A DNA stretch of 41,568 nt. Source: Deltaproteobacteria bacterium (lineage in GTDB: Bacteria > Desulfobacterota > GWC2-55-46). This document shows positions 40,292-41,445 of this stretch, in pieces. The stretch lies in the NCBI GenBank assembly GCA_016219025.1, contig JACRCM010000027.1:1-41568 (forward strand), read 5' to 3'. The position numbers and the translations under genes are program-made. A model generated the notes under the pieces. The model was not told where the DNA came from. It did not search any database and saw nothing but the letters and a program-made list of their open reading frames with translations. Numbering within the stretch: position 1 is the stretch's first letter; each line of letters opens with the position of its first letter.

Positions 40292-40651
40292 ATGACGAAA
40301 TATCTCTTCCTCTCCTGCCTGCTCTACCTTGCAACCGCAGGATATGCCATGGCGGCTGACTCGCCCGCCCAAGACCCTTTCAAGCGCGGTGAGGCGGCCT
40401 TCAACGCCAACTGCGCGAGGTGTCACGGGGTAAAGGGCGGCGGCACTGACAAAGGCCCGCCGCTCGTGCACAAGATATATCAGCCGAACCACCACGCGGA
40501 TATCAGCTTCCGCTGGGCCGTGGAGCGCGGGGTGAGGGCGCACCACTGGCCGTTCGGCGACATGCCTAAGATAGAAGGCGTGAGCAAGGACGACGTGGAA
40601 AATATAATCTTCTACGTCCGCGCCATCCAGAGGGACGCGGGGATATACTGA
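40292..40651 (+). CDS. Small secreted c-type cytochrome
   Basis: 119 residues with a signal peptide (about 1-22, ending AMA) and one haem motif CARCH (about residues 42-46). NANCARCHGVKGGGTDKGPPL and the C-terminal DVENIIFYVRAIQRDAGI are a class I cytochrome c with a likely Met ligand (DMPKIEG). It is exported and carries electrons in the periplasm. AAGGAGG (40277-40283) sets the ATG at 40292. The stop overlaps the next start (TGATG), coupling it to the GrdB-like protein. Confidence 0.88.
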   Translation: MTKYLFLSCLLYLATAGYAMAADSPAQDPFKRGEAAFNANCARCHGVKGGGTDKGPPLVHKIYQPNHHADISFRWAVERGVRAHHWPFGDMPKIEGVSKDDVENIIFYVRAIQRDAGIY

Positions 40652-41445
40652 TGAGCAGGTTCAGGATCCGCATACTCGCAAGACTCCTCACGAGGTTCCC
40701 CGGACTCTTCGACAAGTCCGTTGAGAAGGTCGCGGCGTTCAAGGTCGAGGGCGCGCCGTGGACGCCTTTTACAAAGCCTTTGAACAAGTCCAGGGTCGCC
40801 ATCGTCACCACGGCGGGCGTGCATCTCGTCACGCAGGAGCCTTTCAAAATGAAAGACCCTGACGGAGACCCGTCGTTCAGGGAGTTGCCGTCCGCAACGC
40901 CGATGAAAGATTACATGATTACCCACGACTATTACGACCACTCGGACGCGGACAGAGATTTGAATATCGTCTTTCCCATAGAGCGCCTGCGCGAGCTTGA
41001 AGAGACGGGCGTGATAGGCGGCGTGGCCGATATGAATTACGGCTTCATGGGACACATCGACGGCCCGCACATAGAGACGCTCATAAAGAAGACCGCGCCG
41101 GAAGTGGCGGGCCGCGTCAAACGCAACGGCGTGGACGCGGTCGTGCTTACACCCGGTTGAGGGCTTTGCAATCGGTCCGTGGGACTGATACAGAGGGCGA
41201 TAGAGGAGGCGGGCGTCCCGGCGGTGGGCATCTCAATCGTCAGGCGGTTCACTGAGGAGACCAAGGCCAGCCGCTCGGTCTTCGTCAAATGGCCGATGGG
41301 ACACCCCCTCGGAGAGCCGGGCCGTGCCGATCAACAGACGGCGGTGCTGAAACGCGCCCTCTCAGCCCTCGAATCCATAACCGCGCCCGGCACGATAATC
41401 GACCTGCCGTACAGGTGGAAGAGGGAGGATTGGAAGGAGGGATAG
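40651..41445 (+). CDS. GrdB-like selenoprotein (glycine/sarcosine/betaine reductase B family), UGA read as Sec
   Basis: One frame of 264 codons with a single internal TGA at 41158-41160. Upstream: KSRVAIVTTAGVHLVTQEPF, HDYYDHSDADRDLNIVFPIE, GRVKRNGVDAVVLTPG; then U-G-L-C, NRSVGLIQRAIEEAGVPAVG and the conserved end. UxxC at this place is the selenocysteine site of the PF07355 family. An 8-bp stem with loop GTG (41171-41189) lies 10 nt after the TGA, as expected for a SECIS. A conventional annotation would split or truncate the gene at 41160. Function of short relatives outside Stickland reductases is unclear; coupling to a cytochrome c suggests a redox role. Confidence 0.85.
41171..41189 (+). 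promoter_or_regulatory. Candidate bacterial SECIS stem-loop in the GrdB-like gene
   Basis: ATCGGTCC pairs with GGACTGAT (one G-U pair) around the three-base loop GTG. The loop begins 19 nt after the TGA codon at 41158-41160, fitting bacterial SECIS geometry with G and U in the apical loop. Confidence 0.6.

Follow-up and report, generated by a model that had tools for sequence, protein, structure and literature searches.

A predicted PrdB-like selenoprotein with a conserved SECIS hairpin in a Deltaproteobacteria genome

Glycine and proline reductases need a partner of the PF09338 type, GrdE or PrdA, whose pyruvoyl group binds the substrate. Selenoprotein surveys have filed environmental genes under the name of proline reductase: 42 genes in the Sargasso Sea were listed as 'Proline reductase (PrdB)' with a UxxC motif (PMC1088965), the GOS survey counted 235 of 'Proline reductase PrdB' (pfam07355, UxxC; PMC2398784), and 'proline reductase' selenoproteins were listed for Anaeromyxobacter dehalogenans and 'Geobacter uraniumreducens' (PMC1794560). 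We analysed a 41,568-nt stretch of DNA from a Deltaproteobacteria bacterium (contig JACRCM010000027.1 of assembly GCA_016219025.1, hereafter the window), near the end of which an earlier note had described a GrdB-like gene with a selenocysteine UGA. The gene, its recoding elements and its upstream neighbours are:

37742-40036, upstream of the cytochrome gene: P-type ATPase of the heavy-metal (copper) type, with YHS domains at its N-terminus
40292-40651, + strand: gene for a mono-haem class I c-type cytochrome (PF00034, E 1.2e-11), directly upstream of the PrdB-like gene
40651-41445, + strand: PrdB-like selenoprotein gene, ATG to TAG (41443-41445) with one internal TGA; 264 aa with Sec170
41158-41160, + strand: TGA codon predicted to be read as selenocysteine, the U of U170-G-L-C173; TGA in 109 of 110 readable relatives
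41171-41189, + strand: bacterial SECIS hairpin, 8-bp stem 41171-41178/41182-41189 with loop GUG at 41179-41181; identified by the bSECIS model, covariation and an excess over synonymous recodings

The frame 40651-41445 is interrupted only by the TGA at 41158-41160, and the codons that follow it specify G-L-C, so that the coordinates and the UxxC motif agree with the earlier note. A run of ~94 stop-free codons after the TGA has a chance of ~3% at this base composition; the open frame alone is therefore weak evidence, and homology decides. Homology to one and the same family was present both 5' and 3' of the TGA, in line with the claim that family residues continue past it. A scan of genome contigs yielded 80 loci whose products are 45-74% identical to the window protein over nearly the full length, and a search within the same phylum gave matches in 72 of 297 genomes. 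The codon at the Sec column was readable in 110 loci, a count in which some loci entered twice through different collections and one (L099) is the window itself, so that independent cases are somewhat fewer (101 distinct 60-nt stretches). This codon was TGA in 109 and GGA in one, and no Cys form was met among the 110. The TGA-bearing loci span Deltaproteobacteria, Nitrospirae, Nitrospinota, Methylomirabilota, Chloroflexi, Acidobacteria and others. Cys173 was invariant in our alignment (A2); a more distant relative (L128) is without this Cys. The earlier note had held that homologues without Sec or Cys at this column would speak against recoding; the near-uniform TGA instead supports its selenocysteine reading.

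The single GGA (L022:6508-6510, GWB2_55_19) gives Gly-Gly-Leu-Cys in a locus where the SECIS stem is kept and in a genome with selA; it could be a real Sec-to-Gly change or a metagenome assembly error. The PrdB-like selenoprotein encoded at another locus, L097, shares 55% identity with that of the window; the record is titled 'MAG: Klebsiella pneumoniae', and probably either this label is wrong or the bin is contaminated.

Published criteria for a bacterial SECIS element call for an apical loop of 3-9 nt with a G in its first two positions, an upper stem of 4-16 bp, a distance of 16-37 nt from the UGA, and an MFE of -7.5 or below (PMC13188914). The window hairpin fits these values, with the loop GUG, 8 bp, a distance of 18 nt from the TGA, and about -15 kcal/mol for the stretch (MFE -15.9 kcal/mol, z -2.5, on folding 41155-41205). 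As the hairpin lies within coding sequence, its stem was set against synonymous recodings. All 8 of 8 pairs form in the window, against a mean of 4.6 in 300 recodings, none of which (0/300) reached 8. Across 101 distinct relatives, the mean was 7.6 of 8 pairs versus 5.2 expected under synonymous recoding, with an approximate codon model for the relatives and the stem defined on the window sequence. It is this specific stem that stands out; for the 45-nt stretch as a whole the MFE is not significant, with 29% of the synonymous recodings folding as well. In an alignment of 38 relatives, 96.1% of stem cells pair, and compensatory changes occur at three of the eight pairs (U-A/C-G; G-C/A-U; U-A/G-C/A-U). 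The 22 double-changed cells across the stem were matched in 0/500 shuffles, and so was the covariation score (0.318 versus 0.164 in shuffles, 0/500 as high), which fell sharply when the partners were slid. Nine of the 38 lack the C-G pair at the top of the stem and so have a 5-nt loop. A scan of the window with Rfam gave no match. The 8-bp stem with apical GUG at SECIS distance, proposed in the earlier note, is thus confirmed by its fit to the published model and its covariation.

The host genome (G000), which comprises 2.18 Mb over 170 contigs and has an estimated completeness of 86.8%, carries the Sec machinery that the earlier note had said must exist. A tRNA-Sec with anticodon TCA was found on contig C30 (71.1 bits), SelA on C2, SelB on C119, and SelD on C15, all above curated cut-offs; the presence of tRNA-Sec and SelB also answers the concern that selC or selB might be lacking. 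An RNase P search of this genome found nothing above threshold, which points to possible gaps in the assembly. The selD gene (L015:1501-2418, contig C15) has an in-frame TGA of its own, in the motif WASCAGU, and is a second, independent Sec gene.

We conclude from these sequence comparisons that 40651-41445 is a genuine selenocysteine-containing gene, whose internal stop is predicted to be read as Sec with the help of an RNA hairpin. The best explanation, to which we assign a probability of about 0.9, is a cytosolic-looking, single-domain, stand-alone PrdB-like selenoprotein with SECIS-directed Sec170. During translation, SelB-GTP with Sec-tRNA would bind the hairpin that closely follows the UGA and carries the GUG cap, and selenocysteine would be inserted at residue 170. 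In an AlphaFold2 model of the protein (pLDDT 91, pTM 0.90), Sec170 lies between strand 163-167 and helix 171-186, at the helix start and three residues from Cys173. Such a strand-to-helix-start position is a common place for a redox-active selenol. Given this placement and the invariance of Cys173, the modelled Sec170/Cys173 pair most likely alternates between a selenol/thiol and a selenenylsulfide state, and the protein most likely acts as a reductase or thiol oxidoreductase. Four histidines (H58, H92, H97, and H135) are invariant among the relatives; with H97 and H135 replaced in true PrdB, the four may indicate that the family has its own site for a substrate or a metal. Sequence searches of the PDB returned no credible relative, and we found no family member with a solved structure. 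The best Foldseek match was weak (E 0.018) and to common alpha/beta folds, and the best VIA-align match was microcystinase C (Z 8.4, rmsd 4.3, 163 aligned). We rejected these fold matches, microcystinase C included, as functional clues, since they are too weak and reflect a common alpha/beta arrangement.

A refinement compatible with this reading is that the selenoprotein forms a functional pair with the c-type cytochrome encoded upstream, for example in a redox or metal(loid) response. The cytochrome ORF is listed from a GTG at 40187, and the ATG at 40292 starts a signal-peptide-like sequence; its TGA stop codon (40649-40651) overlaps the start codon of the PrdB-like gene by one base (TGATG). 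The family of this cytochrome was found immediately upstream in 10 of the loci compared, every one of them from the close clade to which the window belongs, although two of the ten (L099 and WIN) represent the window and L075/L106 seem to be a single locus. The spacing is the same in L020, L022, and L023. The heavy-metal P-type ATPase, which lies upstream of both genes in the window, also precedes the cytochrome in many of the close relatives that have it. The overlap and this recurrent order favour a functional link. However, the arrangement is not kept outside the clade, where the neighbours differ (FAD oxidoreductase, radical SAM, or unrelated genes), so the cytochrome pairing is local, and clustering of the neighbourhoods of ~110 loci revealed no partner kept family-wide; the two largest clusters seem to be the gene's own antisense shadow and its downstream half. 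Furthermore, the cytochrome has a signal-like N-terminus and none is obvious in the PrdB-like protein, so the two may sit in different compartments. We regard the pairing as unlikely. In the Methylomirabilota (NC10) loci L062, L066-L069, and L083, a radical SAM-like protein is encoded upstream on the same strand, and the C-terminal sequence of the one in L069 looks, by eye, methyltransferase-type.

Far less probable is that the gene product is a genuine subunit of a D-proline (or glycine-type) reductase and works together with PrdA/GrdE. The family match invites this reading: PrdB (TIGR04483) is the best family (E 3.7e-60, residues 36-258), and an annotated PrdB is 42.7% identical over residues 37-256. 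The score, however, is 203.3 bits against an equivalog cut-off of 300, and the protein has an extra N-terminal part in addition to the differing H97 and H135. The broader TIGR01918 model (glycine/betaine/sarcosine/D-proline reductase selenoprotein B subfamily) was passed at 74.5 bits versus a cut-off of 65.45. For PF07355, full-length GrdB membership was not found; the match is partial, covering only profile positions 216-345 of 347, the C-terminal third, and ends at residue 167, before Sec. Thus the alignment to PF07355 proposed in the earlier note, while it does find the C-terminal third, cannot test the Sec column, and the label 'GrdB-like' was loose: it holds for the partial PF07355 match, but the best family is PrdB. 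These profile comparisons place the protein nearer to PrdB than to GrdB, yet outside the PrdB equivalog.

The partner search bears on the same point. A partner of the PrdA/GrdE type would supply the carbonyl (pyruvoyl) cofactor to which the amino acid binds. PF09338 had no match in the host genome at its 86.8% completeness and none in 20 of 23 related genomes searched, most of them >90% complete; the same search was positive in three genomes with GrdB-type proteins. Similarly, PrdA (TIGR04480) was not found in the host genome or in five close or related genomes, and no prd genes adjoin the window gene. The absence of PrdA from the host genome alone is a weak argument at its completeness, and it is the near-complete relatives that carry the point. 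With no PF09338/PrdA partner found, the protein should not be assigned the enzymatic function of GrdB or PrdB; it probably works alone, on another substrate, rather than as a proline or glycine reductase.

A sequencing error at the TGA, or a TGA that truly terminates translation and leaves a pseudogene or two ORFs, would explain the interrupted frame, but the same TGA in nearly all related loci across several phyla, the conserved hairpin, and the full Sec machinery in the genome make this reading extremely improbable. An alternative genetic code was also rejected, as TGA ends other genes of the window.

The stand-alone PrdB-like reading also affects how the survey entries are understood. The 'Proline reductase PrdB' of the surveys (PMC1088965, PMC2398784, PMC1794560) belongs to pfam07355, has UxxC, is common in marine metagenomes, and occurs in Deltaproteobacteria; from name, Pfam, motif, and taxa, it and the window gene are most likely the same family. 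The gene is in this respect an ordinary member of a selenoprotein family catalogued in environmental bacteria since 2005. The usual label 'proline reductase' does not suit this family, as most of the related genomes searched yielded no catalytic partner, and the 'proline reductase' counts for marine and groundwater bacteria may therefore describe an uncharacterised selenoenzyme. Whether a widespread orphan PrdB-like branch without the pyruvoyl partner, filed as 'proline reductase', represents a stand-alone selenoenzyme of environmental bacteria with a new substrate or chemistry is, in our estimate, an evenly balanced question.

Compared with true PrdB (TIGR04483; Clostridium, Terrisporobacter, Enterococcus), the window protein has a longer N-terminus, and has H97 and H135 where PrdB has N and G; its gene is without prdA/prdC/prdD neighbours, and PrdA was not found, whereas the annotated PrdB genes of Terrisporobacter and Enterococcus (41-43% identical) adjoin prdA. 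In contrast, the length class and the UGxC motif are alike, and the annotated genes, those of clostridia as well as the Terrisporobacter and Enterococcus pair, have an in-frame TGA at the position aligned with the window's. GrdB (PF07355, TIGR01917), to which the window protein matches in its C-terminal part only and for which no GrdE/PF09338 partner was found, has the C-terminal UxxC domain in common with it.
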